Source: Ktedonobacteria bacterium
GTDB taxonomy: Bacteria; Chloroflexota; Ktedonobacteria; Ktedonobacterales; JACDGC01
NCBI GenBank assembly: GCA_027459785.1
Contig: DAIDGU010000055.1
Coordinates: 1 to 64,000, forward strand
Length of the DNA stretch: 64,000 nt
Direction of reading: 5' to 3'
Within the stretch, counting starts at the first letter, position 1, and each line of letters starts with the position of its first letter. Position numbers and translations under genes: made by a program. The notes beneath the pieces were generated by a model that searched no databases, had not been told where the DNA came from, and was given only the letters and a program-made list of their open reading frames with translations. Below are positions 4,886-42,891 of the stretch, piece by piece.

Positions 4886-4938
4886 TTTGCGGCTCCCCCG
4901 ATCAATTCATCAATCGTCGTTCTCCGTCAGATGATCGG

Positions 4939-7099: not shown

Positions 7100-7104
7100 C
7101 TTGC

Positions 7105-7190
7105 CCTTTTCTTCATAGCCTTCGTGAACCTTTCGTGGCCCTTTCGTGGTCTTCGTGAACCTTTCGTGGCCTTTGTGTTCGATCTCGATC
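7105..7190. repeat. Repeat family C (CACGAA-type) element
   Basis: A run of CTTCGTGAACCTTTCGTGG-type iterations (four to five imperfect units). A similar stretch occurs at 36858-36945. It falls between the two alkyltransferase genes and extends the second one's open frame upstream with a low-complexity Lys/Thr/His-rich segment. Confidence 0.65.
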
Positions 7191-7200
7191 TCATCTCTCG

Positions 7201-12945: not shown

Positions 12946-13140
12946 GCTGGCTCTCCCCCTGTTGCCACGCGGCGACCGACCGAACCTCACAGGAAGCGTG
13001 TGGTTGAGGGTTGCACGTCGCTCGTACATCCTCACTAGCATCTTTCAAAGCTTCAACAGTTTTAACTGAGGTATGGTCAACTCTTTCTCGCAATTTCCGT
13101 TGGCTACGCTGAGATAAACTATATGGGGCAGCCCTCTATC

Positions 13141-20673: not shown

Positions 20674-21810
20674 TCAACTTTGCGGCAGATCGAAATAGCC
20701 AACTTCATTGCTGGTAAACACGCCTTTCTGGAAAATCAGCCAGAAGACGCGATCATTGAAGATTTCACCAAATTGACCGCTATCTCCTTGACCGATGGCG
20801 AAAGGCGTTACCGCACCTGATGGCAGGTGGACTAATTGAAATTGCTGGTTATTGAAATCCAGGCACACCACATAGGGGCGATCCTGGCTGATGGCTGGTC
20901 GTATACAATTCTCAGTGATCGCAGCATGTTCCTGGTTAGCATCGCGGTCATAGATATTCAGTGTCATCGCTTGGCTATCGCCCCAAATAAAATAATGCGC
21001 GTTGAAATCATCTACCGCCCAATTGAAAGCTGACACTTGTTGTGGTGAAGATTGGCTGAGATCCCACAGGTAAGGGACGCTGGTGCCATTGGATGTACCA
21101 GAAACATCGACCAGCGTGTAAAAGAGGGTCATACCATGCAGCAATAAGCCCTCATAGCGATGGTCCCCTGGCGCGGTTTGCAGAATCTGTGTTGCGCCTG
21201 TTGCCAGGTTATATGCGTGCAGCACCCCGCGATACGGGTTCGCTACACGCTCGGTCGTCGCCCAAACGATGCTATCGCCATCGGCGGCGAATGCATTATC
21301 ATACGTCAGGTGGAATTGATCGTTCTCCTGCACATACGAATCGATCAGACGATCTTCGCCGCTCACCACGTTGACCGCGCGAATGGACCAGTGCGCGCCG
21401 CTGTCGTCATTTTCCTCATACACGATCCAATCACCGGCGGCAAAAGCTCCATTCATACCGCGTAACGCTCCCCCAGGTGCTGGCGTTGGGGTTGCCAGCA
21501 AACGGATGGTTTGCGTTGCAAAACTATAATAGTACAGTTTAGAATGATCGATAGAAACGCCTTGCGCTGAGGAAAGCAGTCCCAGACCTGAGCTACTGGG
21601 TATAACATCAACGAATTGATAATTGCCCAGGGCAATCGTATGGATCGGCGGAATAACGGGTGGGATAGCGGTCGCCGTAGCAGTAGGCGAAGTCACACTT
21701 GTGCTTGTGCTTGGTGTTGCCGGCGCTGAAGTATGCGTGCTGGCAGCGCAGGCAGCTAGAGTGATCGCCACCACCACGATCGCTGTGATCTTTATCACTC
21801 GCAAACGCAT
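20674..21810 (-). CDS. Lipoprotein, possible beta-propeller
   Basis: A 378-residue lipoprotein precursor. The signal ends in a lipobox (AITLAACAAS, Cys about residue 21), followed by a Ser/Thr/Pro linker to about residue 55. The rest has repeated beta-type segments (GDWIVYEENDDSG, DSIVWATTERV, PYLWDLSQSSPQQVS, DRVFWLIFQKGVF) typical of TolB/propeller-like proteins, though no defined repeat motif could be assigned. Start ATG at 21810 follows GGAAGGA. It is read in the same direction as the C39-like peptidase upstream. Confidence 0.78.
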   Translation of the reverse strand: MRLRVIKITAIVVVAITLAACAASTHTSAPATPSTSTSVTSPTATATAIPPVIPPIHTIALGNYQFVDVIPSSSGLGLLSSAQGVSIDHSKLYYYSFATQTIRLLATPTPAPGGALRGMNGAFAAGDWIVYEENDDSGAHWSIRAVNVVSGEDRLIDSYVQENDQFHLTYDNAFAADGDSIVWATTERVANPYRGVLHAYNLATGATQILQTAPGDHRYEGLLLHGMTLFYTLVDVSGTSNGTSVPYLWDLSQSSPQQVSAFNWAVDDFNAHYFIWGDSQAMTLNIYDRDANQEHAAITENCIRPAISQDRPYVVCLDFNNQQFQLVHLPSGAVTPFAIGQGDSGQFGEIFNDRVFWLIFQKGVFTSNEVGYFDLPQS

Positions 21811-21888
21811 GCGGTGTTTCCTTCCATTTTTAAAAGTGGGTGCTGTAGCTACTTATCCACACCACCCATGCTAAACGAACGATAGATG

Positions 21889-22849
21889 TTAGTAGATGAT
21901 GAGGCCCGTCGCGCCTCCCGTGGTGGTATCCTCAGCTTGCCACATCGTTCCCCAGGCAAGGCTATGATCGCCGGCTATCGTTGCACCATCCGAGGAAGAG
22001 GCGCTATCAGCTACATAGGCATTTGACGAATCGTAGCCGTAGCCTTTAATGACGTGGTTGATAACTTTCCCGCCAGTGTAGCCATTCCACCACGGTAACT
22101 TATCAGCGTTGGCGCGGAAGACCATCGGATGCCCATCGTTGCCGATATCGAACTCGGCGTCGCCCTGCATTGAGGATTGGGAGGTGGTGAGCGTCACGTA
22201 ATAGTAGGTGTAGCTGTACAAGCCGTGTTGCTGGAGGTAGTCGTTCATGCCATCGGCTTCCCACTGCGCGGGTGTGCCATATTCGTAGGGGAATTCACTG
22301 ATGCCGTAGCGGCCATCTTGCGGCAACCACTCACCTTGCGCCATCCAGGCCATGAAGCCTTCGCCTCCGGAATAGGTCACTGTGCCGGAGCCGAAATCTG
22401 GATCTTTCTTAACGGTCATCGAGCCAAAGCCGAGGACATCGCTAGAAGACCAATCCAAAATGACGGCGGTCGCTGAGCCTGGCCCACACCAGTTAGGCTG
22501 ATCAGATGGCTCTTGAACGTAGTTAAGGCCACCATAGCTACCGCACATCGGATGAATGGCGTTGGAGATAGGACCGTTGATCTCGCAAATGATTGTGGGG
22601 GACACAACCGTGCCTTTTGTGGGATGCTTACTCGCAAACCAGTGTGCGGCACGCAGAGCCTTGGCTCGTTGATCTTGCACCTCGGCAGCGGTGAAGGGAC
22701 GCACAATGCCGCCAGCAGCACCAGGAGCCTCACCTACCGGCCCCCCCCCCCCGCGCGGCGAGCGCGGCAGTAGGCTGCGCCACGGCGAGCAACACCGCGC
22801 ACAGTGACAAAATGCTGGACACAAGCGCTTGACGTGATGAGATGGGCAT
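21889..22849 (-). pseudogene. Secreted C39-like cysteine peptidase, frame broken at a 12-G tract
   Basis: Two frames must be joined. From ATG 22849 (AAGGAAG site) runs a Sec signal peptide, MPISSRQALVSSILSLC followed by a hydrophobic stretch to PTAALAA. At 22741-22752 is a run of twelve C (G on the coding strand); after it this frame stops at 22730. The other frame (PVGEAPGAAGGIV onward, to 21889) carries the body: QPNWCGPGSATAVILDW with the candidate catalytic Cys, KVINHVIKGYGYD with the His, and AYVADSAS with the Asp, as in peptidase C39-like proteins. Eleven or fourteen G would restore one frame of about 320 residues. It may be a sequencing error, a dead gene or a phase-variable one. Confidence 0.8.
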
Positions 22850-22980: not shown

Positions 22981-24267
22981 TCAGGCGGTCGTCGCGGCGG
23001 TGATTGCCGGCAGCGTCAGCGTGAAGATCGCGCCGTGGGCGCGGTCCGTGCCGCTGGCGACGGTGAGCGCGCCGCCGTGGGCCTCGGCGATGCCCTTGCT
23101 GATATACAGGCCCAGGCCGAAGCCCGTGATGCCCTCGGCGTTCGCCAGGCGCTTGAAAGGATCGAAGATCTCGTTGACCTTGTCGGGGGGAATGCCCTTG
23201 CCCTCGTCGGCAACGCTGAGCGCCACCCACGCCGGGCTGGTCTGGGCCAGGGTGACGGTGATGGCCGTGTCGGGATACGAGAACTTGACCGCGTTTTCCA
23301 GCAGATTATTCAACGCTTGCACCAGGCGGCCTTCATCATATGTGCCGGATAGCGTCGCTGGCGCGACCAACACGAAGTGGCGATCAGCATGCGCCTGTTG
23401 GTAGAACTCCACTTGCTTGCGCACCATGCTCGCCAGGTCGCATGAGGCGGGGCGAATCTGGAATTGGCCTGCGTCGATGCGCGTCATATCCAGCAGATCG
23501 GTGATCAGGCGGTTCAGGCGTTCCACCTGCTCGTCGATGGCTTGGGTGAAGGCCGTGAAATGTGGGCCATGCTCGGCATCTTTCGCGATGAGTTGCGCAC
23601 CGAACTTGATTGGCCCCAGCGGCGCACGCATGTCGTGAGCAACCATCGCGATGAAGCGCTCGCGTTTCGCCTTCTCGGCTTCCAGCGCCGTTTTGGTCGC
23701 ATCCAGTTCGGCCAGCCGTTCGCGCAGTTGCGCCGTCGCCTCCTCGATCTCCGTGCGCAGATTCGCGTTCATGCTGTCAATCGTCGCGTTCGCCACTTCC
23801 AATTGCTGCACGCGGCGGGCCAGCTCGTCGGTCAATTGCAGCCGCTCGAAGACATGGCGCACGCGCAGCTTCAATTCCTCCACGTCGGTCGGCTTGACGA
23901 GATAATCATACGCGCCCTCGCGCATCGCCTGAATCGCCGATTCCAGCGAGGCATAGCCGGTGAGGACGATGGCAACGGTTCGCGGCGCGGTCCGCCGCGC
24001 CTCGGCCAGCACATCCAGCCCGTCGATGTCGCCCAGGCGCAGATCCGTCAGCACCAGATCATATTGTTGGGCGCGCAGGCGGTCGATGGCCATGCTGCCA
24101 CTGCTGGCGCTATCGACCGTATAGCCCTCTTGCTCCAGGATCGCCTGGATCGTCACCATCACGCCCTGCTCGTCATCCACCACCAGGATGCGCCCGCGCG
24201 CGGAGCCAGGGATGGGCATGCGGCGCGGGCGGGTGCGCGTGCGCCAGGTCGGATCTTCGCTATTCAT
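22981..24267 (-). CDS. Hybrid protein: receiver domain plus histidine kinase
   Basis: A 428-residue soluble protein. Residues 25-140 are a response-regulator receiver domain (RILVVDDEQGV, phosphoacceptor Asp in LVLTDLRLGD, IVLTGYAS, YLVKPTD). A coiled-coil linker (about 150-210) leads to a HisKA domain with His in FIAMVAHDMRAPLGPIKF and a HATPase with NLLENAVKFS, VADEGKGIPP and GFGLGLYIS. Receiver-first kinases usually take phosphate from another kinase; the upstream kinase gene (24357-25943) is the obvious candidate. The start at 24267 follows AAGGAG at a slightly long spacing. Confidence 0.92.
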   Translation of the reverse strand: MNSEDPTWRTRTRPRRMPIPGSARGRILVVDDEQGVMVTIQAILEQEGYTVDSASSGSMAIDRLRAQQYDLVLTDLRLGDIDGLDVLAEARRTAPRTVAIVLTGYASLESAIQAMREGAYDYLVKPTDVEELKLRVRHVFERLQLTDELARRVQQLEVANATIDSMNANLRTEIEEATAQLRERLAELDATKTALEAEKAKRERFIAMVAHDMRAPLGPIKFGAQLIAKDAEHGPHFTAFTQAIDEQVERLNRLITDLLDMTRIDAGQFQIRPASCDLASMVRKQVEFYQQAHADRHFVLVAPATLSGTYDEGRLVQALNNLLENAVKFSYPDTAITVTLAQTSPAWVALSVADEGKGIPPDKVNEIFDPFKRLANAEGITGFGLGLYISKGIAEAHGGALTVASGTDRAHGAIFTLTLPAITAATTA

Positions 24268-24308: not shown

Positions 24309-24368
24309 ATTGAAACCAATGTGCGCGCCTTAGGGGCGTTCCGCCACGAAGCCCGCCTACGCGGGCTG
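24309..24368. repeat. Repeat family B half element overlapping a stop codon
   Basis: TTGAAACC ... GCGCCTTAGGGGCGTTCCGC and GCCCGCCTACGCGGGC. The hairpin pairs differ from other copies but still match each other. The last codons and TAG stop of the kinase gene (24357-24359) lie in this element. Confidence 0.7.
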
Positions 24369-25943
24369 GTTGAGATCGTGTTCGCCGGATTGGTCGGGGG
24401 AACGGATGAAAGGGAGCGCCACCAGGAAAGTGGTGCCTTTGCCAACCATGCTGCGCACGATAATCTGCCCCCCGTGATGCTGAATGATATCCTGGCATAC
24501 CCACAGGCCCAGGCCCGTGCCTTGCCGTTCGGTTTTCGTTGAGAAGAACGGCTCGAAGACGCGCGGCACAATCTCCGGCGGAATGCCCCCGCCGTCGTCG
24601 CGGATGCGCACGACCACGTGGCGACCTGCCAGCAGTTCGGCGTCGCCCTCGTGGGCCAGGCGCGTCTGCACCAGCAGCCCGCCCCCCTGCGGCATCGCCT
24701 CGCGCGCGTTCAGCAACAGATTCAAAAAGACCTGTTTGAGCTGATCCGCTGAGGCCATGACCAGCGGCACATGCTCGTCCAGATGCACCGTCAGCGTGAG
24801 GTGGCCCTGGCGCAGTTGCGGCCCCAACAATTGCAAGGCTTCCTGCAAGACCTGATTCACGTCCGTCGGCGCGAAAGCCACCGAGGGGCGCGACAGGCCG
24901 AGCATCTGGCGAATGATGCGCGAAACGCGCTCGGTCTCGCGCTGCGCCAGTTCCAGAAATTGATAGTCGGGGTCAGCCGGATCGCTGCGCTGGACGAGCA
25001 AATAGAGCGCGTTCTTGATCGCTTCCAGCGGATTATTGATCTCGTGGGCGATGCTCGCCGCCAGCCGCCCCGTCGCCGCCAGCTTCTCCGATTCAAAGAT
25101 CTGCTGGCGAATGCGATGCTCCTCCAATTCGCGGGCGCGCGTCATATCGTGCAGCACGGAGACGATGCCCTGCTGGCCAGCCAGCGCATCCGGCACCTGG
25201 CTGGCCGAGATCGCCATGACGACCGCTTCCTGTGTGCGCGGATCGGTCAACTGCAATTCGCCCTGGTGGACTTCATCGCTGACATCCTGCGCCAGGAAAG
25301 CGCGCAGGCGCGTCAGGTTGCGCGCGATGATATTGATCTGGTCGCTCTGTTCCTCGGCATCCGGCGCGAGGGCCACGTCGAAAAGCCGTGCCGCCGGCTC
25401 GTTCATGCTGATGAGCGCGGTCCCCGCGCTGAGTACGATCGGGTTGGCCGCGTAGCGCATCAGCAAGGCTAACTGATCCGTTTCGCGGCGCTCGCGCAAC
25501 GCGGCGTCCGCGCCCATGAAGATCGTGCCGATGGTCTCGCCCAGCCCCAGCAGCCGCGCCTGCTGCTGCGGCGGGATCGGCTGCGCAGCCAGCGCCAGCA
25601 GCACGGCCAGCGGAGCCGCTGCCGGTGCCACGCGCACCGGCACGCCGCACCAATGCATGTGGCCAGCGATGAGTGATTCGGTGCTGCCGCAACAGATGCG
25701 CCCGGCCTGGGCCGTCTGCACGACGGGATGGCGCGCATCGCTCGCGCGCACCACCAGGGCGCGCACGCCTTCGCCCGGCACGCCCACACCGCAGAGGCCC
25801 CGCCACTGCACCAGCACGCCGCTGTCCGCGTCGCGTTCCGCCGTCACCAGCACCAGCGCCACCTCCGGCAGTTCCACCGCCCGCCGCTCCATCTGCGCCA
25901 GGATGAGGCTTTCGACCGCGCCGCCAATGATGATCTCAGTCAT
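24357..25943 (-). CDS. Sensor histidine kinase (NtrB/HisKA type)
   Basis: A 528-residue soluble kinase. The first 155 residues are unrecognised (several Cys, including RICCGSTES). A PAS-like sensor covers about 160-275 (LMRYAANPIVLSAGTALISM ... VSVLHDMTRARELE). HisKA follows with His in RLAASIAHEINNPLEAIKNA, then a HATPase with NLLLNAREAMPQGGG, IRDDGGGIPP, FFSTKTERQGTGLGL. The ATG at 25943 is chosen because GAGGAGGG lies nine bases upstream; the in-frame ATG at 25952 is too close to it. It is 90 bp upstream of the receiver-kinase gene and probably cotranscribed. Confidence 0.9.
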   Translation of the reverse strand: MTEIIIGGAVESLILAQMERRAVELPEVALVLVTAERDADSGVLVQWRGLCGVGVPGEGVRALVVRASDARHPVVQTAQAGRICCGSTESLIAGHMHWCGVPVRVAPAAAPLAVLLALAAQPIPPQQQARLLGLGETIGTIFMGADAALRERRETDQLALLMRYAANPIVLSAGTALISMNEPAARLFDVALAPDAEEQSDQINIIARNLTRLRAFLAQDVSDEVHQGELQLTDPRTQEAVVMAISASQVPDALAGQQGIVSVLHDMTRARELEEHRIRQQIFESEKLAATGRLAASIAHEINNPLEAIKNALYLLVQRSDPADPDYQFLELAQRETERVSRIIRQMLGLSRPSVAFAPTDVNQVLQEALQLLGPQLRQGHLTLTVHLDEHVPLVMASADQLKQVFLNLLLNAREAMPQGGGLLVQTRLAHEGDAELLAGRHVVVRIRDDGGGIPPEIVPRVFEPFFSTKTERQGTGLGLWVCQDIIQHHGGQIIVRSMVGKGTTFLVALPFIRSPDQSGEHDLNQPA

Positions 25944-26309
25944 CGCTGCCATCCCTCCTCATCCCCGCTGTAATACTGATATGTGCCAACCGCCGTGCGC
26001 GAAAAGATCGCTGGGCAGACCACCGGGAGCATCGATTGAAAGTAACCATCGTCCCGGCTCGGAACAGGAACCCCTACGGACTATGCGTCATGCGCTCGTC
26101 AGCCTTGTGTAGTGTCTTCTGTCATTCTATCTACATCTTAGGTGATTGGGGGCGAATGGGGGCGGGGATGGCCAGAAGGGGCTATGACGGGAGCGACTGC
26201 AACCTGCCATAGAATTCGCAAAAGGAGTACGTGCAGCAGAGTTTGGGGGAATATGGCAACAAAGTGTACTTCATGCAAGGGCTACTGCCAGTTTTGGGAA
26301 AAGGCGGTG
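25944..26309. other. Intergenic region without a supported gene
   Basis: This gap lies at the edge of the less GC-rich island. It contains a second copy of the CCCGGCTCGGAACAGGAACC element (about 26054-26081; compare 2675-2702). Small plus-strand frames near 26230-26330 are not convincing. Confidence 0.5.
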
Positions 26310-27590
26310 TTACTGGCGAAATTTGGCTGAGAAGCGCGTGAAAAGACGTTGCACCCATAAAGTTTTGTTCCATGACCACAACAATAAACCGACACTCAAG
26401 CCTGTGATTGCAAGGGCCAAACCACTATCAAAGGCGGAAACGACATGACGGGTAGCGACGCTCGTTATCCATGTTTGCCATTCCTGGTACGTTGCCATTA
26501 TTAGCGCCGGCAAAATGAACCAGATGAGCAAAGCACTCGCCAAGGCAACACCAACAACTGTGATTATGGTATATGCCAGCACAAATCGATCCATTGCTTG
26601 CGGCATCTCCTCGTCCTGTTGCCAGGTTGAATGACTTTTACCAGCATCGTGTAGACGCGCAAGGAAATCATGCCAAAGTTTGAGCAACACTACCTGTGTG
26701 CGTTCGGGCAGATCGTGACGGTTGGTGAGATCGGCAAGCAGATGATACATATCGGTTTTAAGGAAAATTTGCAGTTCCCAGGCAATACCCAGATAGAGCG
26801 AGATGAGCAAAATGCCAATAAGACGATAGAGCGATACAGGCATGAGCAAGATGTGATGATCTGCTAAAAATAGGCTGATTGCCCCTATCGCTGCCAATAC
26901 AAGATCATTGCGCATGCCGCCAGCATAAATGATCAGACGTTGCCGGCGGGGCAACTGCCAGATACCACCGATCCGGCTGACAGCAACGAGGAAGAAAAGA
27001 CGGTGGCCAAAGGTTAACTCAGCGGTAATGCCGAATGCGCGTGCCGCAAACAAATGGCCGCACTCGTGTATGAAGAGGATAAGCATACCGATAAAAAACA
27101 ATGAAATCGTATCAACGGCATACGAATTATTCCAGAGGATATCAAGGGTTTGGTGATGAAAAACAACATCAATCCCCCAGAATACGGGTCCGAGTACGAT
27201 CAGGATCAATGAAAGTGCCAACATGAGTGGTGAATAGAACCATGCTACCGCTGCCGGCGATATGTGTCCCAACCAGTTTTGGCCAATCGCTCGTTCACCA
27301 ACAATCTCTTGCTGATCAATTGCTTGAACCAATCCAGCGTCAGCGAGTGCTGAGACGAGATCGGCTACATCAATATCCTCCTGGAAGTGTTCTAAAAGGT
27401 ATGTATGAACGGTGCTGATGCTTGCACCGCTTTGCAACTGTTCAATCGCTCGGATGCCGATTGCTGGCAGGGCGATTGCCGTGTTAGTTGGCGCACAGCC
27501 GACGATCCACTCTTCCGCATCCGTCTCTGAGGGGCGCATGAAGATCGCGCGAAACCGCACCTTAGAATCGTCACGCACATCGCATGTCAT
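26310..27590 (-). CDS. M50-family membrane peptidase with PqqD-like N-terminal domain
   Basis: A 426-residue protein. Residues 25-92 look like a PqqD/RRE-type winged helix (IALPAIGIRAIEQLQSG, VADLVSALADAGLVQ), the fold that binds RiPP leader peptides. The membrane part from about 120 has several helices, the zinc motif HECGH at 175-179 (ILFIHECGHLFAAR), and the second M50-type aspartate in FLKTDMYHLLADL (Asp281). This resembles the M50-like peptidases of peptide-modification loci such as YydH. The likely job is leader removal or release of the modified 26-residue peptide. The ATG at 27590 overlaps the ThiF-like gene's stop as ATGA; the frame is open to 27629 but that lies inside that gene. 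Confidence 0.85.
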   Translation of the reverse strand: MTCDVRDDSKVRFRAIFMRPSETDAEEWIVGCAPTNTAIALPAIGIRAIEQLQSGASISTVHTYLLEHFQEDIDVADLVSALADAGLVQAIDQQEIVGERAIGQNWLGHISPAAVAWFYSPLMLALSLILIVLGPVFWGIDVVFHHQTLDILWNNSYAVDTISLFFIGMLILFIHECGHLFAARAFGITAELTFGHRLFFLVAVSRIGGIWQLPRRQRLIIYAGGMRNDLVLAAIGAISLFLADHHILLMPVSLYRLIGILLISLYLGIAWELQIFLKTDMYHLLADLTNRHDLPERTQVVLLKLWHDFLARLHDAGKSHSTWQQDEEMPQAMDRFVLAYTIITVVGVALASALLIWFILPALIMATYQEWQTWITSVATRHVVSAFDSGLALAITGLSVGLLLWSWNKTLWVQRLFTRFSAKFRQ

Positions 27591-28702
27591 TGCTGTTCTC
27601 CTTGCACCAGCGTGCCACATGCGGCACATGTCGCTTGACGTGGCCAGGGAAAATCTTCAAGGGCAAATTGCATGAGGTCGAGTTGAAACATATGATCATA
27701 GGTCATAGGTTGTATCATGCCGGTTATATGTTTGATGATCTCACCACAGGTGATGCTGGCAGCAGCGGCGGAGACAAAGTATGTGGTGGGGTGGCGTAAG
27801 CGCGACGCTTCATTGATCCATGCCAGTTGTTCAGGCAGCGATTGCCCCTGCCGTTCGTGGGGATAGCACATCAGGCAACCTGTCACCCCCGGCACAACAA
27901 ATGGCCCCACTTCGGCCAATGTGCCACGATAGCCACCATTGATAAACGGTACGCCGGTTGCCAGCGCAACCTGATTCATCCAGTCATTGATATGATCTCC
28001 ATCAGCACATAAGGCAACAACATCGATACCTTGCAACCGTGCCGTGAGATCGTCAGCGTCCTGAATGAAATGTGGGATGGCATCAAAATGAATATCAGGA
28101 TTGAAGCGGTGTAAATGTTCGGCAGCAAGGGTCGCTTTGGCGTGTCCGATATCGTCAGTGGTGTACAATACCTGACGATTCAAGTTGCGCAATTCGACGG
28201 TGTCACCATCAATGATGCGCAGATAGCCCACGCCGGCAGCGGCTAGCCCGATGGCAAGATTGCTGCCTAATCCGCCTAAGCCAATGACAGCGACACGCGC
28301 CTGTTTCAGTCGTGCTTGCAAAGCATAGCGCTGTTGACCAGTGGTATCGAGAATGGAAAAAAACCGGATTTGATTCGCATAGCGGTCGCTATCGGTCGCG
28401 CTTAGTTCAGTCGGAGGCACAGCCGCGGCATCTTCAATCAAGCTTAATGCGGCAAGATCTTCAAGCGTCTCAGCAACATCATCCGCTGTCACCGAGGGAA
28501 ACCGTGCTTGCAATTGTTGGACGATCTCCGCGAAGGGATGTTGGCCATCCAGTAGCGAGAGCAATAGCAGTTGTGTTTCATCAATATCCTCAATCAACGC
28601 ACCTCGCTCCCGACCGTAATGAAAGCCGATGTTCATTTGATGTGCCGTGGAATCGGCAACTGCATGCAAATGGCGTTTCAAACAAGGCTTAATGAAGTGC
28701 AT
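27587..28702 (-). CDS. E1/ThiF-like adenylating enzyme with N-terminal RRE-like domain
   Basis: A 371-residue protein. Residues 1-95 resemble a peptide-binding RRE/PqqD-like domain (TQLLLLSLLDGQHPF, VAETLEDLAALSLIED). Residues 130-371 are an E1-like domain with everything needed to adenylate a carboxylate: GLGGLGS (141-147), IIDGDTVELRNLNRQ with Asp165 and Arg176, Lys189 in GHAKATL, Asp234, and a four-cysteine zinc site (Cys276, Cys279, Cys359, Cys362). The architecture matches MccB (microcin C) and PaaA (pantocin), which act on short ribosomal peptides. The ATG at 28702 follows GGAGGG; the frame extends upstream only over the peptide gene. Confidence 0.88.
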   Translation of the reverse strand: MHFIKPCLKRHLHAVADSTAHQMNIGFHYGRERGALIEDIDETQLLLLSLLDGQHPFAEIVQQLQARFPSVTADDVAETLEDLAALSLIEDAAAVPPTELSATDSDRYANQIRFFSILDTTGQQRYALQARLKQARVAVIGLGGLGSNLAIGLAAAGVGYLRIIDGDTVELRNLNRQVLYTTDDIGHAKATLAAEHLHRFNPDIHFDAIPHFIQDADDLTARLQGIDVVALCADGDHINDWMNQVALATGVPFINGGYRGTLAEVGPFVVPGVTGCLMCYPHERQGQSLPEQLAWINEASRLRHPTTYFVSAAAASITCGEIIKHITGMIQPMTYDHMFQLDLMQFALEDFPWPRQATCAACGTLVQGEQQ

Positions 28703-28726
28703 GGCACCCTCCATAGTATGAAAGAA

Positions 28727-28754
28727 GCGGTATCGAGCAGGAGTTCGATACCGC
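28727..28754 (-). terminator. Attenuator-like hairpin after the peptide gene
   Basis: On the minus strand, GCGGTATCGA and TCGATACCGC form a perfect 10-bp stem around an 8-nt loop, followed by TTCTTTC. It lies between the stop of the 26-residue peptide gene (28765) and the start of the ThiF-like gene (28702). A partial terminator here would give more peptide than enzyme, as in many RiPP operons. Confidence 0.75.
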
Positions 28755-28764
28755 ACGAACGACC

Positions 28765-28845
28765 TTAGCAATAAGGCCAACAGAATGGCATCGTATAAGC
28801 GGGTAGCTCGGCCTTGGTCAAGGTGCGGATCTTCAGCTTTTTCAT
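28765..28845 (-). CDS. Candidate RiPP precursor peptide, 26 residues
   Basis: A short gene, too small for ordinary ORF calling. ATG 28845 is preceded by AAAGGAGCCAGTAAAG and the stop is TAA at 28765. The peptide begins MKKLKIRTLTKAEL, a basic leader-like part, and ends PAYTMPFCWPYC, an aromatic, proline-rich candidate core with Cys22 and a C-terminal Cys26. It is directly followed by a strong hairpin and then by an E1-like enzyme and an M50 peptidase, each with a leader-binding-like domain. I do not recognise the sequence family. The RBS, position and downstream attenuator support it; function as precursor is inferred from context. Confidence 0.75.
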   Translation of the reverse strand: MKKLKIRTLTKAELPAYTMPFCWPYC

Positions 28846-28904
28846 CTTTACTGGCTCCTTTCATCTCAAAATCATGCGTCGCCTTTGCCGAGGCTGAAAC
28901 GCAT

Positions 28905-28924
28905 CAACAGAGATATCTCTGTTG
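28905..28924. promoter_or_regulatory. 20-bp perfect palindrome upstream of the peptide gene
   Basis: CAACAGAGATATCTCTGTTG is a perfect palindrome 60 bp upstream of the peptide start, in the 184-bp gap after the regulator gene. Its half-site CAACAGAG recurs twice upstream of the regulator's own start. A candidate operator for the XRE-type regulator; -10 and -35 boxes could not be fixed. Confidence 0.6.
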
Positions 28925-29029
28925 TAGACAAGTATGCCTGATATGCTTGCACAATTCCATGCAAAATCTGCAGTTTGCCTGCAACTTCGTGGTAAAGGAG
29001 CGATGCTGCGAATGGGAAACAGATGCGCC

Positions 29030-31708
29030 TCAAGAAATTATCTGTAACTGCTGCAACGCTTCGAACGATGACGAAAAACCTTGCTCCCACAGATCCTGCC
29101 AACGGTTCGGCTCAAGAGCGGTCTGTGAGGTCAGGACGATCTGGAGTAAGAGGCGCTGTTCTAACGGATCGAGCTTTAAGTGGCGCTGTTCGCACCACTT
29201 GTTCAACATTCCAAGCCAAAGCACTGCGCATTCCACGTCACCTTTATGGTATAGCAAGCGGACGTAGCCCAACAGGCATTTATAAGTGTAAGGAGGAAAA
29301 TCAGCCTCGGCAAAGTTTGCTAGTGCTTCATCATAGACATCTTGTGCTCCGACTAAATCGCCCTGCGCAGTGCGACAATTACCGAGCAGGGTTAAAGCGA
29401 CGGCAAGTGAAGACAGCGCCTTACTCGCACGGAAATAGGCGATACTCTGCTGGCACCAATCTTCTGCTTGCGCATATTGCCCCTGCAATTGCGCGTTTTC
29501 TCCCAGATTCATCAGGGTAATCGCCGCTTCAAAGCGGTTGCCCAGCGAATAATGGAGCGCTAAAACTTCTTTGAAGTAAGCCGTAGCACGTGCATAATCG
29601 CCCCGCGTATGCGCCAGGACACCGAGGTTTCCCAATACCAGCGCAACCCGGAAGGTGTCACCGCGTTGGTATTGGATCGCCAATGCTTCTTCTTGGCACT
29701 GTGTTGCGCGATCATAGTCGCCCTGCATACGCAAGATATTGCCTAGATTGTCCAGGCCAATAGCGATGTCACATTGGCTCCCTATGGTTCGGTAAAGTGC
29801 CAGGGCTTCTTCCTGATAGCTTTGTGCTTCTTGATATTTGCACTGTGCCTTGAGTACGAGGGCAAGGTTGGTAAGGGCGTCTCCCATGCCTCGCACGTCA
29901 CCGCGTTGCCGTTGCTGTTCCAAACATGTATTTAGCCATGTGGTTCCCTGAATGAAATCTCCTTGTTGATAGGCAAGCAGCCCAGCCCCATTCATCGCTT
30001 TGGCATACAATTCTGTGTCGTCAGAGGGAATGGTTGCCAAGGCCCATTCGAGATACTGCCGGCCTTCGCTTATGAGGTCACGAATGCGCCAATATCGGAA
30101 GAGCTTGCTCACCATACGCAATCCGAGAGACGGTGCATGCGGAATAGCCCATTCCAGTGCCAGGCGAATATTGATATGTTCTTGATCCAGCCGAGCAACC
30201 CATTGGTGTTGGTCCGGTCCCCACAGATGGGGACTGGCCGCATCGATTCGATCACTCACATAGAGGGCATGGACACGGGCGATCAGGTCTGCTTCTCCAA
30301 GTGCTTCGGCCTGTTGCCAGGCAAACTCGCGCAGGGTGGTAAGCATGGTAAAACGAAGCGCTTTTTGTGGCTCTTCAATACGTTGAATGAGATGATGTTC
30401 GCAGAGGGACAATGCTACCTCAAAGGCATTGATTGAAGCATCTGGCGTAGTTGCATTTGGAGAAGAAGGCGGTTGCAGCGCAAGCAGGTCATTCAATTGC
30501 GTGAGCAAATGCTCAAGATGCTCATATGGACAGCCGCCGACAAAACGCGCGAGGAGGCGTAAACAACGCGATTCAACAGAAGTAAGTAATTGGTAACTCC
30601 AGTCCCAGGCATCATGCAAGGTGAGATGGTGTTTGGGCGCGTCCTGTGGCCCATGCATCAGGATCTGCTGGTGCTGATGCAGTTGACTGAGGATGTCCTC
30701 AACCGGGAGTAAGCGGACACAACTAGCAGCCAACTCGATTGCTAGTGGCAGCCCATCGAGATGGTGACAGATGGCCAGGATGGTTTGCGCATTTATCTGA
30801 GATAGGCTGAATGTTGGTTGGATCATTTGAACGCGCTCAACAAAGAGTGCGACCGCCGGGTTCATTTGCAGCGCAGCTAATGAGGCAGCCTGCAAGGGGA
30901 TGAGAGTTGACGAAGACGGGATTCCTGCGCCCACACGTCCATTCTCAGCCTCTATAAAAGGCTCTGATAGCTGCAAAAGCGGAAAGGGATGGAGTTCGAG
31001 TTCATGCTCTCCCCTAATGCGAAGCGGTCGCCGGCTGGTGAGCACAATTATGAGGTAGGGGCAGTGTGCAACCAGATCGGCAACAAGTTGCGGCAGCGTC
31101 GACAAATGTTCAGCATTATCGAAAAAAAGAATCATATGCCGATTAGTCAGCATGGTAATCACGTGTTCTTTGAGTGGACGCGCAGCTTGTTCGTGTTCGC
31201 CTAAAGTATCCAGGATGGTGCCGAGAACGGCATCAATGCTGGTCAAAGGGGCCAACCAGAGGACCGCACTGCCATCGACGAAGTGGTGTTGCATTTGACA
31301 GGTTGCGGTCCAGGCGAGACTGGTTTTACCCACTCCAGCAGTCCCTGTGATAGTGATGATACGGTATGCCGGGCATCTGAGCATCTGACAGAGACTCTGC
31401 ATCTCCGCATCCCGCCCTATCAAAGTAATAGGTGGTTGAGAAAGGGATATGTGCTGAGAATGTTCTTGTGGCGAGGATGTAGCACGTTGGGATGCGAAGA
31501 ACGTGATGCGTTGCTCAGGCGAGAGCGCCAAGGAATCTGCTAGTAAAGCAAGGGTACTTGAACGAGGAGGGCGCTCATTGTGGTTTTCGATGTTGATGAT
31601 GGTCCGAACACTGACACCGGACCGTTCTGCCAACGCTTCCTGTGTCAGGCCGGCTTGTTGTCGATAGCGTTTCACTAACACACCCAAGTGCGACGTCTTA
31701 TCCCGCAT
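29030..31708 (-). CDS. XRE-HTH / NB-ARC / TPR regulator
   Basis: An 892-residue STAND-type regulator. Residues 5-65 are an XRE helix-turn-helix (LTQEALAERSGVSVRTIINI). An NTPase domain follows with Walker A GTAGVGKTSLAW near residue 125, Walker B MILFFDNAEHL and GLPLAIELAA. About 300 C-terminal residues form TPR units (IGLDNLGNILRMQGDYDRA, LVLGNLGVLAHTRGDYARA). The start at 31708 follows GAGG. Proteins of this design switch genes on or off when a ligand binds the TPR/NTPase part. It lies immediately upstream of the peptide gene in the same orientation and shares the lower GC content of that island, so control of the peptide operon is the natural inference. Confidence 0.88.
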   Translation of the reverse strand: MRDKTSHLGVLVKRYRQQAGLTQEALAERSGVSVRTIINIENHNERPPRSSTLALLADSLALSPEQRITFFASQRATSSPQEHSQHISLSQPPITLIGRDAEMQSLCQMLRCPAYRIITITGTAGVGKTSLAWTATCQMQHHFVDGSAVLWLAPLTSIDAVLGTILDTLGEHEQAARPLKEHVITMLTNRHMILFFDNAEHLSTLPQLVADLVAHCPYLIIVLTSRRPLRIRGEHELELHPFPLLQLSEPFIEAENGRVGAGIPSSSTLIPLQAASLAALQMNPAVALFVERVQMIQPTFSLSQINAQTILAICHHLDGLPLAIELAASCVRLLPVEDILSQLHQHQQILMHGPQDAPKHHLTLHDAWDWSYQLLTSVESRCLRLLARFVGGCPYEHLEHLLTQLNDLLALQPPSSPNATTPDASINAFEVALSLCEHHLIQRIEEPQKALRFTMLTTLREFAWQQAEALGEADLIARVHALYVSDRIDAASPHLWGPDQHQWVARLDQEHINIRLALEWAIPHAPSLGLRMVSKLFRYWRIRDLISEGRQYLEWALATIPSDDTELYAKAMNGAGLLAYQQGDFIQGTTWLNTCLEQQRQRGDVRGMGDALTNLALVLKAQCKYQEAQSYQEEALALYRTIGSQCDIAIGLDNLGNILRMQGDYDRATQCQEEALAIQYQRGDTFRVALVLGNLGVLAHTRGDYARATAYFKEVLALHYSLGNRFEAAITLMNLGENAQLQGQYAQAEDWCQQSIAYFRASKALSSLAVALTLLGNCRTAQGDLVGAQDVYDEALANFAEADFPPYTYKCLLGYVRLLYHKGDVECAVLWLGMLNKWCEQRHLKLDPLEQRLLLQIVLTSQTALEPNRWQDLWEQGFSSSFEALQQLQIIS

Positions 31709-31857
31709 GTGAAGAGCCTCATTCCTACTCTTTCATAACTGCTCCAGCCGTGCTATTCATGGCAACTTCACCCTATGTGTTGCTTTGCTCGCTACTTCAT
31801 ACCGCGCACGATCCTTGCAGTTGTAAAAAAGGGTTGCAGCATAGCAGGTGTTATCGT

Positions 31858-32028: not shown

Positions 32029-34956
32029 TCACGCCGGCTCAGTTGCCAGGGGTAGCGTGAACCAGAAGGTCGCGCCGTGGCCGGGGCTGCTCGACAGGCC
32101 CACCTGGCCACCGTGGCGCTCGATCACCGTTTTGCAGAGATAGAGGCCCAGGCCCAGCCCGACATTCGAGCCGTTTTCCACAACGGCTTCCGGCGCGCGG
32201 TAAAAGCGGTCCCAAACGAGAGCTTGTTCAGCCACCGCGATCCCCGGCCCTTGGTCGCGCACCGCTACGCGCGCGGTACCTTCTGCCAGAGCAAGTTCGA
32301 CCGCGATGGGCGTATCCATCGGCGCATATTTGAGCGCGTTCACCAGATAGTTCGTCACCACCTGGCCGATGCGCCCGGCATCCATGGCCACCACCACGGG
32401 CGCGGGGGGCAGTGCTAGCTCGATAGCACGCGACGGCCACAGCAGGCGCTGTTCCTCGACGGCCTCGCGCACCACCACACTCAGATCGCCGCGCACGATC
32501 TGGAACTGCAACAGTCCGGCTTGATTACGGACCATATCGATCATATCCTGCACGATGCGGTCCAGGCGGGCAATGTGCCGATCTGAGCGTTGCAAGAGGT
32601 CGTGCGCGCGGGCCAGCCGCGCATCCACCGCGTTCGTCGCCACGAACTGGTCAATGGCGCGGACGGCGATCTGGAGATTGGCTTTGATGCTGGTGAGGGG
32701 GGTACGCAATTCATGGCTGGCGATGCCCAAAAATTCGTCGCGCTGCCGCGTGGCGGCCTCCGCCGCCAGCCGCGCCGCTTCTGCCGCCGTCAGTTGCGCG
32801 CTCAGCCGGCCCCGTTCCAGCGCCTCCGCCGCCAGCCGCCCGATGCCCGCCAAGAGATCGTGGTCCCACGGCGCGAACTCATCCACCTGACCCTGCGCTG
32901 CCGTGCGCGCACGCCCGATGGTCAGCAGGCCGACGAGCTGGCCGGCTACGACGACCGGGGCCGTGATGCCCGTCCCCAGGTGAAAGCGATCCACAGCGAA
33001 AGGCGAGACGATGGGCGTTTCCGCTGGAAAACGTTGCACCAACACATTGCCCGCCCGCAGATAAGCTGCCATCTGGACGACGCGCGCATCATTGGCAGGC
33101 TTGAAGGCCGACACCGAAGCGCGCCATGCGGCGAGTTCAGCGGGCGGCAGATGATACATCGCAACCGGTTCAAGGCGCAACGCCGGCTCCGTCTCATCCA
33201 CCAACAGCGCATGGGCGATATCCACGCCGTCGAGTTGACTGAGCGCCTCGGTGAGCCGGGCCAGGAGCATGCGTACATCCGCCTGCGTTGCCGGTTCCGT
33301 CACGATCTGCGCGACGCGCAACAGCACGGCCAACGCCTCCTGCGTGCGCCGTTCCAGCGCATAACGCGCGGTGACATCGCGGGTGACGATGACGGCCCCG
33401 TTTATCTGCCCATCGGTGGCGCGCACCGGCCCACCGCTGGTGCTGAGTTGCAGATCGCGTCCATGTGGCTGGCGCATCTGGGTGTCCACGCCCACCAGTT
33501 GTTCTCCGCGCAGAATGCGCGCGACCGGCGTCTGGTCCGCCGGGAGGGGCTGCCCCTGCGCGTCGCGCACCCCGAAAGCCGAAATGCGCTCGCCAAACGG
33601 CGTCGCCAGGTACGTTTCATCAACGAGGTTGGGATTGATCAAGCGCGCGGCGGGATTGCTTTGCACTAACTCGCCGGCAGCGTTATAAACGTAAATGCCG
33701 TCCGTGATCGCCGCGAAGACGGCTTCGAGTTCGGCGGCGCGGGCGGCGACGGCGGCTTCCAGGCGCTTGCGGTCGGTGATATCGAGGGCGAAGGCCATGA
33801 TGCGCAACGGTTGTAGGGACAACAACACGCCGGCCAGGATAATAGGGACCGGCGTGCCATCGCGTCGCAGATAAACTTTCTCGAACGGCGCGCAGGCACC
33901 ACGCGCCAGCAGTTCTTGCGAGGCGCTGTCATCGGCAGCTTCCCAGCCCGGCGGCGTGAGGTCTTGCCAGCGAATACGGCGGGCGGCGACATCTTCAGCG
34001 GCATAATCCAGCATCTGCAAGAAAGCAGCGTTGGCTTCGAGCACGGCGTCGGCATCCGCCACGAAGATCCCGATGATATTGCGATCAACGACCGTGCGGA
34101 ACTTGGCTTCGGCTTCCCGCGCGGCGGCAAGCACCGTTTCGAGATCGCGGCGTGTGGCGCGCTCCTGGGCGAGTACGGCTTCCAGGCGCGCTTCGCTGGC
34201 TGTGCGCGTGGTGATGTCGCGGTGAATCCCGATGGTGCCAACCACCGCGCCCTGGTCGTCCACCAGCGCCCGCACGGTGGCCATGCTGATGCTAGGCGTG
34301 CCATCCTTGCGCCGATATGCCAGCTCGCCGCGCCACTCGCCCTGCGCCAGCACGGTTTCCAGCACGGCGGCTGATTGGGTGGTGGGGGCCGAGGGAAGCC
34401 GTAAGACTGCGGGGGATTGTCCTAGCATTTCCTGGCGCGTGAAGCCGAAAAGCATCTCGGCTGCCGCGTTCCAGTCCGTGATGCGCTCTGCGCGGTCGGT
34501 TACGATGACGGCGTCGGTGGTGGCATCGAAAACCTGCGCCCGCTGCTGCGTGCGGTCACGCTCCTGCTCGACTTCGGCGAGCGGGCAACTCACGCCGCGC
34601 CAGTGGGTGATCGCTCCTTGGGCATCCAGCACCGGCGTTGCCTGCATTAAAAAGCGGCGATACACACCATCCGCCCCGCGCAGGCGCTGGGTCACGGAGA
34701 GCGGCTGGCCGCTTTGCAGGGCGTGTACCCAGGCGAGCATCGTCGTTTCACGATCATCCGGGTGGATGACACTATCCAGCCAACCAGCGGTGGGCAGCGG
34801 TTCCGGCTGGCCTGTGTAGGCCCGCCAGGTCGGGACATCCTGCATCAAGCGCCCGCTGGGCAAGGCTTCCCAAAATAACGGTCCCACGGTGGCCACTTCC
34901 TGTGGTGGGTGCGATGGCTTGCGCCCTCGACGGGGCGAAGGGGTGGGACGCGCCAT
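32029..34956 (-). CDS. Multi-PAS/GAF sensor histidine kinase
   Basis: A 975-residue soluble kinase. Four PAS domains are suggested: about 25-130 (PAS_3-like, SVIHPDDRETT), 140-255 (TTDAVIVTDRAERITDWNAA), 290-390 (VDRNIIGIFVADADAVLEAN) and 405-515 (ITDGIYVYNAAGELVQSNPA). A GAF domain covers about 535-720. HisKA has His in FLGIASHELRTPLTSIKANL and the HATPase has YLVNALKYAPMD, VRDQGPGIAV and GLGLGLYLCK. No membrane segment and no adjacent response regulator, so the signal is probably cytoplasmic and the partner is elsewhere. Start follows GAGAGAG. Confidence 0.92.
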   Translation of the reverse strand: MARPTPSPRRGRKPSHPPQEVATVGPLFWEALPSGRLMQDVPTWRAYTGQPEPLPTAGWLDSVIHPDDRETTMLAWVHALQSGQPLSVTQRLRGADGVYRRFLMQATPVLDAQGAITHWRGVSCPLAEVEQERDRTQQRAQVFDATTDAVIVTDRAERITDWNAAAEMLFGFTRQEMLGQSPAVLRLPSAPTTQSAAVLETVLAQGEWRGELAYRRKDGTPSISMATVRALVDDQGAVVGTIGIHRDITTRTASEARLEAVLAQERATRRDLETVLAAAREAEAKFRTVVDRNIIGIFVADADAVLEANAAFLQMLDYAAEDVAARRIRWQDLTPPGWEAADDSASQELLARGACAPFEKVYLRRDGTPVPIILAGVLLSLQPLRIMAFALDITDRKRLEAAVAARAAELEAVFAAITDGIYVYNAAGELVQSNPAARLINPNLVDETYLATPFGERISAFGVRDAQGQPLPADQTPVARILRGEQLVGVDTQMRQPHGRDLQLSTSGGPVRATDGQINGAVIVTRDVTARYALERRTQEALAVLLRVAQIVTEPATQADVRMLLARLTEALSQLDGVDIAHALLVDETEPALRLEPVAMYHLPPAELAAWRASVSAFKPANDARVVQMAAYLRAGNVLVQRFPAETPIVSPFAVDRFHLGTGITAPVVVAGQLVGLLTIGRARTAAQGQVDEFAPWDHDLLAGIGRLAAEALERGRLSAQLTAAEAARLAAEAATRQRDEFLGIASHELRTPLTSIKANLQIAVRAIDQFVATNAVDARLARAHDLLQRSDRHIARLDRIVQDMIDMVRNQAGLLQFQIVRGDLSVVVREAVEEQRLLWPSRAIELALPPAPVVVAMDAGRIGQVVTNYLVNALKYAPMDTPIAVELALAEGTARVAVRDQGPGIAVAEQALVWDRFYRAPEAVVENGSNVGLGLGLYLCKTVIERHGGQVGLSSSPGHGATFWFTLPLATEPA

Positions 34957-41221: not shown

Positions 41222-41598
41222 GGGGGGTAAACGCATCATGCATTGAAAAGTCTGGATCAAACCCCTTGGTGAGCATATCCAAGCATATCAGTTCAAGCGT
41301 GTTGCTCGGTTATTTCATGTTTAGTCGTCCAATCTGGTATCGCCCTCCACACACCGGCAACTGCGTCATAGGACACTCGCGCATGGACTTCCATCACTTC
41401 ATCAATACGCCATAATGGCTTCGGCATCGTTCACTTGTATCTCTGATTGATAAATTTTCTGTGGTATTGGAGACCACCGGATTAAGGCTGAGCATTTTTC
41501 GCCTCTTGTCCCTCTGGTTGAGTGACTTTGGCAAACTTATACCGTTCTATTTGTTGAGACGCAAGCATGTAATCATATTGCAAAGGAGTTTACATCCC

Positions 41599-42891
41599 AT
41601 GCAGGTTAAATTCACGTTCAGCGTAAGCCTTCTTCTTTTTGTGCTTGCCATGATGTATGGCCTCAGCACACCTGTTCATGCTCAAGCGCAGGATACGGGG
41701 TATAGCATCAAACTCACCTATTCAGGTGCCGGCACCATCCCGTTTGGCGAATCCATCGGTGCTTTCACCGCAGATTTCACCCATCCCACGACCAAGCCCT
41801 CGAACGGAGAAACCGTAGATCTCTATGTCGATAATGCGATTGGGACTGCTTACGCGGGAGATGATCGTTACGTCAGCAATACAGAAGACAGTATCTACTT
41901 CTCTGGCGTGAGCGGCCTTTCCGTGGGAACGCACCAATTTCAGGCAAAATATTATCTTACGACCACCTCAACCTGGATTCTCAGCAACGTTCTGACGGTC
42001 ACGATGGGTAAAGGCACGACCCAACTATCATGCGGCTTTACTAATCCCGCCTACACCTATGCGCCTGACCAAACGCTGCTGATCACGATGGCCGTCAATG
42101 CAACTTCTGGCAACGGCACAGTTGATTGGCGCAATGGCACTTTCACCGTCATATTCAAGGGTTCTGTGACAGTGACTGAGGCCAATTTGAAGGCCAATGA
42201 TCAGGAACAGGTGACGGTGCAAGCGCCGCAAATAACGGGTTCTTTCCAAGTCATCTGCCAGTTTGATGGATCGCCAAACTATAGCGGCGGACCAGGTGCT
42301 GGTTTCTCGATCGCCACCATCATCAGCCAACAACACAAAACTGGCCAGATTCAGTTATATTCCAACCCGACAACCGTGCAAGCAAACCAGACCGTCACGT
42401 TTTATGTAGTCATACCAGCGGGGAATGGCCTGCCAACGCCAACTGGTTCCATTGATATCAGCATCGCAAACGCCAGCTCACGTCCTATCCCATTGGATGC
42501 AGCTGGGACAACGCTTGTGCGCGGGATCGCACCGCCTAGCGTCTATGGCAACGTCTCTATTCTTTATTTCGGCGATGGGGTCTATACCTCTGAGTACCTC
42601 AACTTCCCATTGACCAATCCGCCCATTCCCTCATCAAGCGGCGGATCTGGGTCGGGCAATGGTAATGCAAACACGCCAACCCCTACCATTCATGCAACAG
42701 CGACACCGACTGTCAGTGCATCCGTCACACCCAGCGCCGTTGCAACTGCAACTCCTACTGTTGCGAAGGACACCACCCAATCCCCGTTTCTATCGGCAAT
42801 GCCGGTGTTGATCGGGGGCGGGAGTGCGGCCATCGTGTTGAGCGGCTTTGCTGGCATAGTCGTCATGCGGCGGCGTAAAGACCTCCTTTAA
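41599..42891 (+). CDS. Surface protein with Ig-like domains and C-terminal anchor
   Basis: A 430-residue secreted protein. ATG 41599 follows AAAGGAG; the frame is open to 41461 without support. Signal peptide (KFTFSVSLLLFVLAMMYGLS, cleavage near VHAQA). Residues about 30-345 contain three beta-sandwich-like units (SGLSVGTHQFQAKYYL, ITGSFQVICQFDGSPNYSGG, YGNVSILYFGDGVYTSEYLN) of the bacterial Ig-like repeat type. A Ser/Gly then Thr/Pro-rich stalk follows, then one transmembrane helix (IVLSGFAGIVVM) and an RRRKDLL tail. Likely a cell-surface binding or structural protein. Confidence 0.85.
   Translation: MQVKFTFSVSLLLFVLAMMYGLSTPVHAQAQDTGYSIKLTYSGAGTIPFGESIGAFTADFTHPTTKPSNGETVDLYVDNAIGTAYAGDDRYVSNTEDSIYFSGVSGLSVGTHQFQAKYYLTTTSTWILSNVLTVTMGKGTTQLSCGFTNPAYTYAPDQTLLITMAVNATSGNGTVDWRNGTFTVIFKGSVTVTEANLKANDQEQVTVQAPQITGSFQVICQFDGSPNYSGGPGAGFSIATIISQQHKTGQIQLYSNPTTVQANQTVTFYVVIPAGNGLPTPTGSIDISIANASSRPIPLDAAGTTLVRGIAPPSVYGNVSILYFGDGVYTSEYLNFPLTNPPIPSSSGGSGSGNGNANTPTPTIHATATPTVSASVTPSAVATATPTVAKDTTQSPFLSAMPVLIGGGSAAIVLSGFAGIVVMRRRKDLL

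Follow-up and report, generated by a model that had tools for sequence, protein, structure and literature searches.

A putative minimal RiPP operon in a Ktedonobacteria genome pairs an RRE-bearing E1 enzyme with an M50 protease that has an RRE-like N-terminus

Amongst the ribosomally synthesized and post-translationally modified peptides (RiPPs), those made with ThiF-like adenylyltransferases (TLATs) include enterofaecin, indolylamide, GRC thiolactone, pantocin A and microcin C (EnfB, IndF, GrcB, PaaA and MccB, respectively), the enzymes of which join a RiPP recognition element (RRE) or clamp to an E1 domain. RRE-bearing E1 enzymes acting on short peptides are a recognised group, in which adenylation of a peptide carboxylate is followed by nucleophilic attack, giving N–P bonds, a thiolactone, an indolylamide or an imide (PMC12150305, PMC12250964). 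ThiF-like RiPP enzymes are growing in number, and those characterised form disparate bonds; the TLAT members named in the papers belong to Enterobacterales, Bacillus, enterococci, streptococci and one Hyalangium. Membrane metalloproteases of the site-2 type (M50) are known from other RiPP classes: daptides, whose leader is removed by a protease (MpaP/DapP; NF041824) with an RRE fused N-terminally to PF02163 (PMC10036551); epipeptides (EpeP/YydH/LiaK), where a membrane M50 protein is encoded beside a short peptide gene; and pearlins, where such proteins (TglG, TmoG) act on a ribosomal peptide. Here we describe a locus in which the two enzyme types adjoin, located in a window of 64,000 nucleotides (the whole stretch of DNA analysed) on contig C55 of a Ktedonobacteria genome of 4.84 Mb in 88 contigs. 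Four genes on its minus strand, in the 5′ to 3′ order regulator, 26-codon gene, RRE-E1 and M50, occupy a block (26300–31750) of 51.3 % G+C, compared with 64.3 and 63.3 % in the 20 kb flanks, and the ATG of the M50 gene overlaps the TGA stop of the E1 gene by 4 bases, as ATGA. This arrangement is as the first-pass annotation, made without database searches, had described it.

The four genes probably make up a minimal TLAT-type RiPP operon, distinguished by the RRE-fused M50 protease that it employs. A minimal RiPP pathway had already been proposed in the first-pass annotation, and is supported by a leader peptide conserved amongst relatives and by profile matches to RREs. The accompanying claim of novelty is overstated, as RRE-E1 and RRE-M50 proteins have each been published; a description of the two combined was not found in the full texts searched, which did not extend to supplementary files and most subscription papers.

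The E1 enzyme matches ThiF in Pfam (6.7e-48) and also PqqD (4.5e-4, under Pfam's cut-off), with the RRE at approximately residues 15–92 and the adenylation domain at residues 108–359. Its best relatives of solved structure are MccB (2e-32) and PaaA (5e-30). Ten residues (G141, G143, G144 and G146 of the GxGGxG motif, D167, N173, R176, Q177, K189 and D234) are invariant in 17 aligned E1 sequences including that of the window, and the same is true of a Cys4 zinc-type site (C276, C279, C359 and C362), in agreement with the initial description of both features as retained. The spacing of R167, K180 and D225 of EnfB, which are reported to be needed for ATP and Mg (PMC12250964), is exactly that of R176, K189 and D234 in the window enzyme, and the spacing of Q167 and K179 of IndF (PMC12150305) is that of Q177 and K189. 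Judged from these alignments, the catalytic residues of the E1 are intact and the same as those of the TLAT enzymes. Its C-terminal part (residues 258–369) passes TIGR03882, a leader-binding family of the thiazole/oxazole-modified microcins (TOMMs), with 40.8 bits against a cut-off of 36.9, this being the sole cut-off passed among the 25 NCBIfam models listed. Unlike the YcaO-dependent TOMM systems, however, the window operon is without YcaO, and the ATP site of the E1 itself is intact.

The M50 protein matches Peptidase_M50 in Pfam (3.8e-7) and carries the motif HECGH at residues 175–179 (27054–27068), with D280 (26751–26753) as the second metal ligand. Across 14 aligned M50 sequences, that of the window included, H175, E176, H179 and D280 do not vary, and by this measure the catalytic residues of the protease are intact. 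Its probable RRE-M50 layout resembles that of the daptide protease, and 4 of the 14 aligned M50s match NF041824 at E-values up to 0.1 (best 7.1e-11). The window protein differs in showing no NF041824 match at E 0.1; furthermore, its operon is without MpaB/C/D/M genes and its peptide has neither a C-terminal Thr nor the ELExMEAP motif. The YydH/LiaK family was considered for the window M50 and rejected, and the early comparison with YydH-type peptidases proves a weak one, as NF058609 gives E 0.003 and 17 bits, far under its cut-off of 225. Whilst the window shares with epipeptides a membrane M50 beside a short peptide gene, its operon is without a radical SAM enzyme; indeed, neither radical SAM nor YcaO proteins were found among the 4 operon genes and 10 other scanned open reading frames (ORFs) of the window.

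Both enzymes had been thought to carry RRE-like N-termini, and profile matches uphold this clearly for the E1 but weakly for the M50. Profiles of 11 of the 17 E1 N-termini and 12 of the 14 M50 N-termini were searched against the PDB. The E1 profile finds PaaA first (4.3e-7), followed by MusD, TfuB1 and LynD (0.005–0.008), and further down the list PqqD proteins are mixed with winged-helix regulators; at E-values up to 0.1, Pfam's PqqD matches 7 of the 17 E1s and PaaA-like_N matches 5. The M50 profile retrieves seven entries at E 10 or better. RREs account for three of them (TbiB1, 0.017; TfuB1, 0.26; a PqqD family protein, 1.3) and designed or unrelated proteins for the remaining four, with a designed helical pore topping the list (0.012, 28 residues). 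Pfam's PqqD matches 4 of the 14 M50s at E-values up to 1 (best 0.019). When the two N-terminal profiles are aligned to each other with hhalign, 64 columns pair with a probability of 54 % (E 1.3e-4), or 55.5 % in the reverse direction (1.2e-4), compared with 0.1–0.2 % for four control pairs of other domains.

The precursor peptide appears to divide near residue 14 into a leader (approximately residues 1–14; 28804–28845) and a core (approximately residues 15–26, PAYTMPFCWPYC; 28768–28803). Its leader contains the stretch KIRTLTKAEL, which harbours the only Glu of the peptide (E13), and its C-terminal end reads FCWPYC, placing W23 four residues from the C-terminus, which is a Cys. Neither NCBIfam nor Pfam contains a family that the peptide matches, and a pairwise search with the 26-mer ranks the corresponding peptide of genome G016 beneath two unrelated places (E 0.75) and misses that of G019. 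A leader profile of 12 positions was derived from 12-mers chosen by eye, with the scored locus left out, and was applied to short ORFs within 500 bp upstream in 21 loci (17 with E1, 4 with M50 only), using 400 dinucleotide shuffles per locus as background; L079, L001, L059 and L097 lie outside this test. The window peptide scores 17.3, a value unmatched in 400 shuffled versions of the sequence upstream of it. In total, 15 of the 21 loci stand at 0/400 and two more at 1 and 3 of 400, with failures confined to L073 (240/400), L078 (259), L075 (107) and L084 (25). As near relatives of the scored locus stayed in the profile in this test, a stricter profile was made without the window, G016 and G019. 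With it, the window peptide tops the 1020 short ORFs of the 64 kb (13.8; runner-up 7.3) and the G016 peptide tops 252 (10.4 versus 7.8), whilst the G019 peptide leads 371 by a narrow margin (9.9 versus 9.2). The full profile also locates peptides 3′ of the M50 gene in three loci on which it had not been trained: two in L073 (18.6 and 14.6; best other ORF 7.0), and one each in L078 and L079 (27.5 each; best other ORFs 6.8 and 6.0), the latter two being near relatives that share one peptide sequence. Because of the shuffle test and the stricter ranking, the window peptide is, at the level of sequence statistics, more than a chance ORF. That it should be one, lying beside a sulfur-carrier-type E1 and an M50 of regulated proteolysis with no RiPP involved, is scarcely credible: the lack of a described family and the failure of pairwise similarity to link its relatives speak for this, but the leader-profile tests, the out-of-sample peptides and the RRE matches speak against it.

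Relatives of the locus provide further comparison. Full-length RRE-E1 enzymes are rare in Chloroflexota, occurring in 5 of 400 genomes (G000, G016, G019, G042 and G293); ten of the 400 matched at 1e-40, with the best four candidates per genome scored, and as five of these ten cover the adenylation domain only, they were not counted as relatives. A search of genome contigs with the window E1 returned 21 loci, of which only L001 matches well past the conserved adenylation core, and in this locus the profile finds no leader peptide. In the host genome itself, searches detected a single peptide of this type, a single M50 of this family and a single full-length RRE-E1. Adjacent E1–M50 pairs are present in 11 loci examined, from Chloroflexota (the window, G016 and G293) and Actinomycetota (G573/L093, L073, L077, L078, L079, L080, L082 and L083), the latter drawn from a plasmid collection and genomes and hosted by Streptomyces (three loci), Actinacidiphila, Nocardia, Nonomuraea (two) and G573. 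The two genes overlap by 4 bases in 5 of the 11 (the window, L073, L077, L079 and L083). Each of the 11 pairs comes with a short gene bearing the leader; the shuffle test places it 5′ of E1 in eight loci, and rank places it 3′ of M50 in three. The conserved small peptide gene expected from the first annotation is thus indeed found near the pair. In G016, the E1 (52 %) and then the M50 (43 %) are preceded by the peptide MKKLRIRVLTKTELTRLSTDVIDPNA, and a divergently transcribed relative of the regulator lies beside the pair (tblastn, 35 % over the first 305 residues compared); G293 has E1, M50 and the peptide MQKVTIQIRKLEKIETTGARHAQGAG. Looser arrangements exist in two Bacillota loci (L076 and L084), where E1 and M50 belong to one gene run with one or two genes between them; a leader peptide is present in L076, with a weak candidate only in L084. 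Of these two, the Priestia locus contains three identical peptide copies, MKKIVVRKLATVTVPQLRPGT. Across the relatives, precursors measure approximately 19 to 40 residues and cores approximately 4 to 12. The L084 run (3566–7675, on a Macrococcus armenti plasmid) consists of E1, an arginase-family protein, an isochorismatase-family hydrolase and M50, and the arginase may act on peptide Arg.

Other relatives carry the E1 without the protease. G019 displays the peptide MKKLHIRRCSSKELPRLSPYAPT, E1 and then a major facilitator superfamily (MFS) transporter, with no M50. In G042, a matching leader lies in a frame opening at another ATG and the peptide gene is out of register relative to G019, so it may be broken or start elsewhere; this genome also has a second, half-length RRE-E1 copy comprising the adenylation part only (L098; G042:C10:242373–242921). 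Viral contigs yielded five E1 relatives and, in the contigs searched, no M50 relative. One of the five (L099, 1724–5978, on a 154 kb viral contig) has, by eye, a methyltransferase-like gene on either side and an MFS-like gene close by, and is directly followed by a basic 24-codon ORF ending in Asn, a weak candidate peptide. On a Niallia taxi megaplasmid (L081, 4516–11525), a WWIII-type peptide, E1, a short HExxH membrane protein and ATP-binding cassette (ABC)-like genes are seen, with a LytTR-like regulator and kinase alongside on the opposite strand (all by eye); this may be an enterofaecin-like set with an M50-like protease of its own.

Conversely, the protease and leader peptide also occur without the E1. 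A profile of the M50s matched 6 of 396 Actinomycetota genomes at 1e-20, strongly in three of them (four places): G573, with adjoining E1, and G606 (two places) and G565, without; the other three (G628, G487 and G564) reach approximately 76 bits in long frames. A third M50 place lies in Nonomuraea. The peptides beside the M50s of G606 and G565 share the leader (MKKLVVRKLEPIKTSANADCVPAAA, MKKITVRKAGSVRLTANANSLYAPFSCWPF and ...MKKFAIRDVETVKTTAAALYIPFFCGGGGWPF). In G144, G137 and G077, all of one genus (g52), the M50 follows arrays of 13, 9 and 11 leader-peptide genes; an M50 of this family is also present in G085. Searched across their whole genomes, G606, G565, G144, G137, G077 and G085, some of which are drafts, yielded no full-length RRE-E1. 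M50 and leader peptide in genomes of this sort therefore form a separate module. The arrays (L058, 6556–8664; L059, 6147–7730; L097, 4629–6474) comprise tandem genes encoding MKKITIRKAETLKTTAAFYAGGCG followed by a variable, often Gly/Pro-rich tail, and lead to an RRE-M50 and, in L058 and L059, then to a 628 aa TPR protein (by Pfam on that of L058); with their RRE-M50 they are a RiPP-like family of their own. The same layout of leader peptide gene, M50 and TPR protein is displayed by a plasmid of Streptomyces sp. NBC_01450 (L104, 4314–7957), where the peptide, an annotated 57-codon gene, scores 20.2 against 5.7 for the next ORF with a profile untrained on this locus, and no E1 is annotated within 10.4 kb. 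Amongst the M50-only loci, L096 has a peptide tail, PFSCWPF, that resembles the window tail PFCWPYC (28768–28803), the hosts being unrelated.

Set against the described TLAT systems, the window has several of their features: an intact adenylation domain, an N-terminal RRE by sequence profile and a very short, leader-bearing precursor adjoining the E1, with a [VI]R motif in the leader; its Niallia relative, moreover, has the enterofaecin-like peptide mentioned above. In contrast, its core, FCWPYC, is unlike WWIVI and NWYFI, and its operon is without a radical SAM, ABC or MFS gene. With respect to enterofaecin, the core thus differs from the WWIVI type, whilst the leader IRTL is partly like (V/I)RKA. 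The indolylamide (ind) cluster has an M16 protease and an NWYFI core rather than M50 and FCWPYC; however, the indolylamide of IndA spans W6 to I9 (PMC12150305), and W23 of the 26 residues is, like W6, four from the C-terminus. The Asn end of the microcin C precursor is replaced by Cys. The pantocin A core has a Glu–Glu cyclisation site, for which the window core offers no Glu at all.

The steps proposed for the operon follow from the E1-group and daptide papers. The RRE of the E1 would bind the leader at KIRTLTKAEL; in EnfB the leader motif (V/I)RKA is important (PMC12250964), and this resembles IRTL in the window leader and IRKL/VRRA in relatives. The E1 would then use ATP to adenylate one of the peptide's carboxylates, most likely that at the C-terminus, and the acyl-AMP would be captured either within the core, giving a macrocycle, or by an outside amine. 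Capture by Cys22 would yield a five-residue thiolactone, C-W-P-Y-C, akin to an autoinducing peptide (AIP), whilst capture by Trp23 would form an indolylamide spaced, as in IndA, at W(-4). Five residues is also the ring size of staphylococcal AIPs. The M50 would bind the same leader through its own RRE and cut it off at the membrane, with the HTH–ATPase–TPR protein probably controlling expression. The product may act in signalling or as an antimicrobial. A single ring type for all cores was considered and rejected, as there is no common nucleophile.

Several observations weigh against this interpretation. The leader profile finds no convincing peptide in L075 and L084; four E1 loci (G019, G042, L074 and L075) have no M50 neighbour; and leader-peptide M50s exist in genomes with no detected full-length RRE-E1 (G606, G565, G144, G137 and G077). 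The best match of the M50 N-terminus to a known RRE is weak (0.017), and AlphaFold models are too poor for a fold test of either enzyme (pLDDT 52 and pTM 0.26 for the single-sequence M50; pLDDT 50 and pTM 0.49 for the three-sequence E1). Moreover, the cores vary, and since some (GLQV, QNPAT) are nearly devoid of side-chain nucleophiles, one ring type cannot serve them all. Finally, the presence of PFSCWPF in an M50-only locus means that the CWP motif may not concern the E1.

A more specific scheme, which we consider unlikely, is that of an autoinducer-like ring made without AgrB: the E1 would join the C-terminus to Cys22 or Trp23, the RRE-guided M50 would trim the leader and release the ring, and the HTH–ATPase–TPR protein would be both sensor and regulator. 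As E1 or M50 occurs alone in other genomes, the same leader code would serve two separable modules, with leader and M50 the older chassis to which E1 chemistry was added.

Less probable still is a pearlin-like route, in which the peptide would be a scaffold whose C-terminal residue is modified and then excised by the M50 acting as a carboxypeptidase, to release a small molecule. The M50s of pearlin pathways (TglG, TmoG) do remove the C-terminal residue (PMC10885120), and the C-terminal residues of the peptides are mainly small (C, A, T, G, S). Nevertheless, the operon encodes no additional enzyme and is flanked by sensor kinases (a PEARL ligase elsewhere in the genome was not sought), 4 of the 14 M50 relatives resemble the daptide protease, a leader remover, and the variable cores are unlike a reused scaffold.

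Similarly doubtful is the idea that the peptide belongs to the M50 alone, with the E1 a bystander. Sets of M50 and leader peptide without E1, and the likeness between the window tail and that of L096, lend it some weight, yet E1s without M50 also adjoin a leader peptide (G019, L074), and the E1 and M50 genes share 4 bases both in the window and in four other loci.

We give slightly less credence again to microcin C-like chemistry, whereby the E1 would place a nucleotide on the C-terminus, as MccB does, for a Trojan-horse antibiotic. MccB is the best solved relative of the E1, G019 presents peptide, E1 and MFS transporter in mccA–mccB–mccC order, and the weak L099 candidate beside a viral-contig E1 ends in Asn. 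MccB, however, modifies the C-terminal Asn of MccA, a 7-mer, whereas none of 15 other E1-associated peptides counted ends in Asn (window C, G016 A, G019 T, G293 G, L074 R, L076 T, L077 S, L080 G, L081 I, L082 S, L083 T, L093 G, L073 A and S, L078/L079 V), and these peptides have a leader of approximately 12 residues or more.

If the preferred reading of a TLAT-type operon with an RRE-fused M50 is correct, it would extend the known systems by a pathway of three genes, seen in Chloroflexota and Actinomycetota and, in looser form, in Bacillota. It would also provide a readable leader motif common to two unrelated enzymes, each seemingly with an RRE. Loci with E1 alone, with M50 alone and with both form a natural series that makes the step of each enzyme, and the handover of the leader from RRE to RRE, directly testable, and the predicted products, at approximately 4 to 12 residues, are small enough for easy synthesis and assay.

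Features of the locus are collected in Table 1. The regulator matches HTH_3 (8.7e-12), NB-ARC (1.8e-5) and TPR_12 (2.2e-32) in Pfam. The hairpin between precursor and E1 has a folding z of -2.96, with none of 200 shuffles equally good, and would possibly allow an excess of precursor over the downstream genes; terminator-like sites in the region total 8 against 6.3 expected (sd 2.4), which is not above chance.

Table 1. Positions of the operon genes, their RRE domains and associated signals within the window
Feature	Coordinates	Strand	Description
Regulator	29030–31708	-	892 aa; N-terminal HTH, STAND/NB-ARC-type ATPase, C-terminal TPR repeats
Ribosome-binding site GGAG	28855–28858	-	9 bases 5′ of precursor ATG, by sequence
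Precursor peptide gene, MKKLKIRTLTKAELPAYTMPFCWPYC	28765–28845	-	26 aa
Hairpin, 10 bp, with T-rich tail, terminator-like	28727–28754	-	Separates precursor from E1
RRE-E1 (ThiF-like adenylyltransferase)	27587–28702	-	371 aa
E1 RRE (PqqD/PaaA-like, N-terminal)	28427–28660	-	Residues 15–92; profile matches
RRE-M50 (site-2-type membrane metalloprotease)	26310–27590	-	426 aa
M50 RRE-like N-terminal domain	27297–27566	-	Residues 9–98; profile matches

The closest flanking genes encode sensor histidine kinases (22981–24267, 24357–25952 and 32029–34956), with no RiPP tailoring genes amongst them. Elsewhere in the window, a separate low-G+C stretch encodes a protein with a TIR domain followed by many TPR repeats (10828–13041), possibly a defence or signalling protein. 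Three ORFs of 311–476 aa in further low-G+C stretches (20674–22824 and 41461–42891) are without a Pfam match at 1e-5, and an Eco57I/MmeI-type methylase of restriction–modification (61022–63955) extends into the part of the window lowest in G+C (38 % at 61001–62000).

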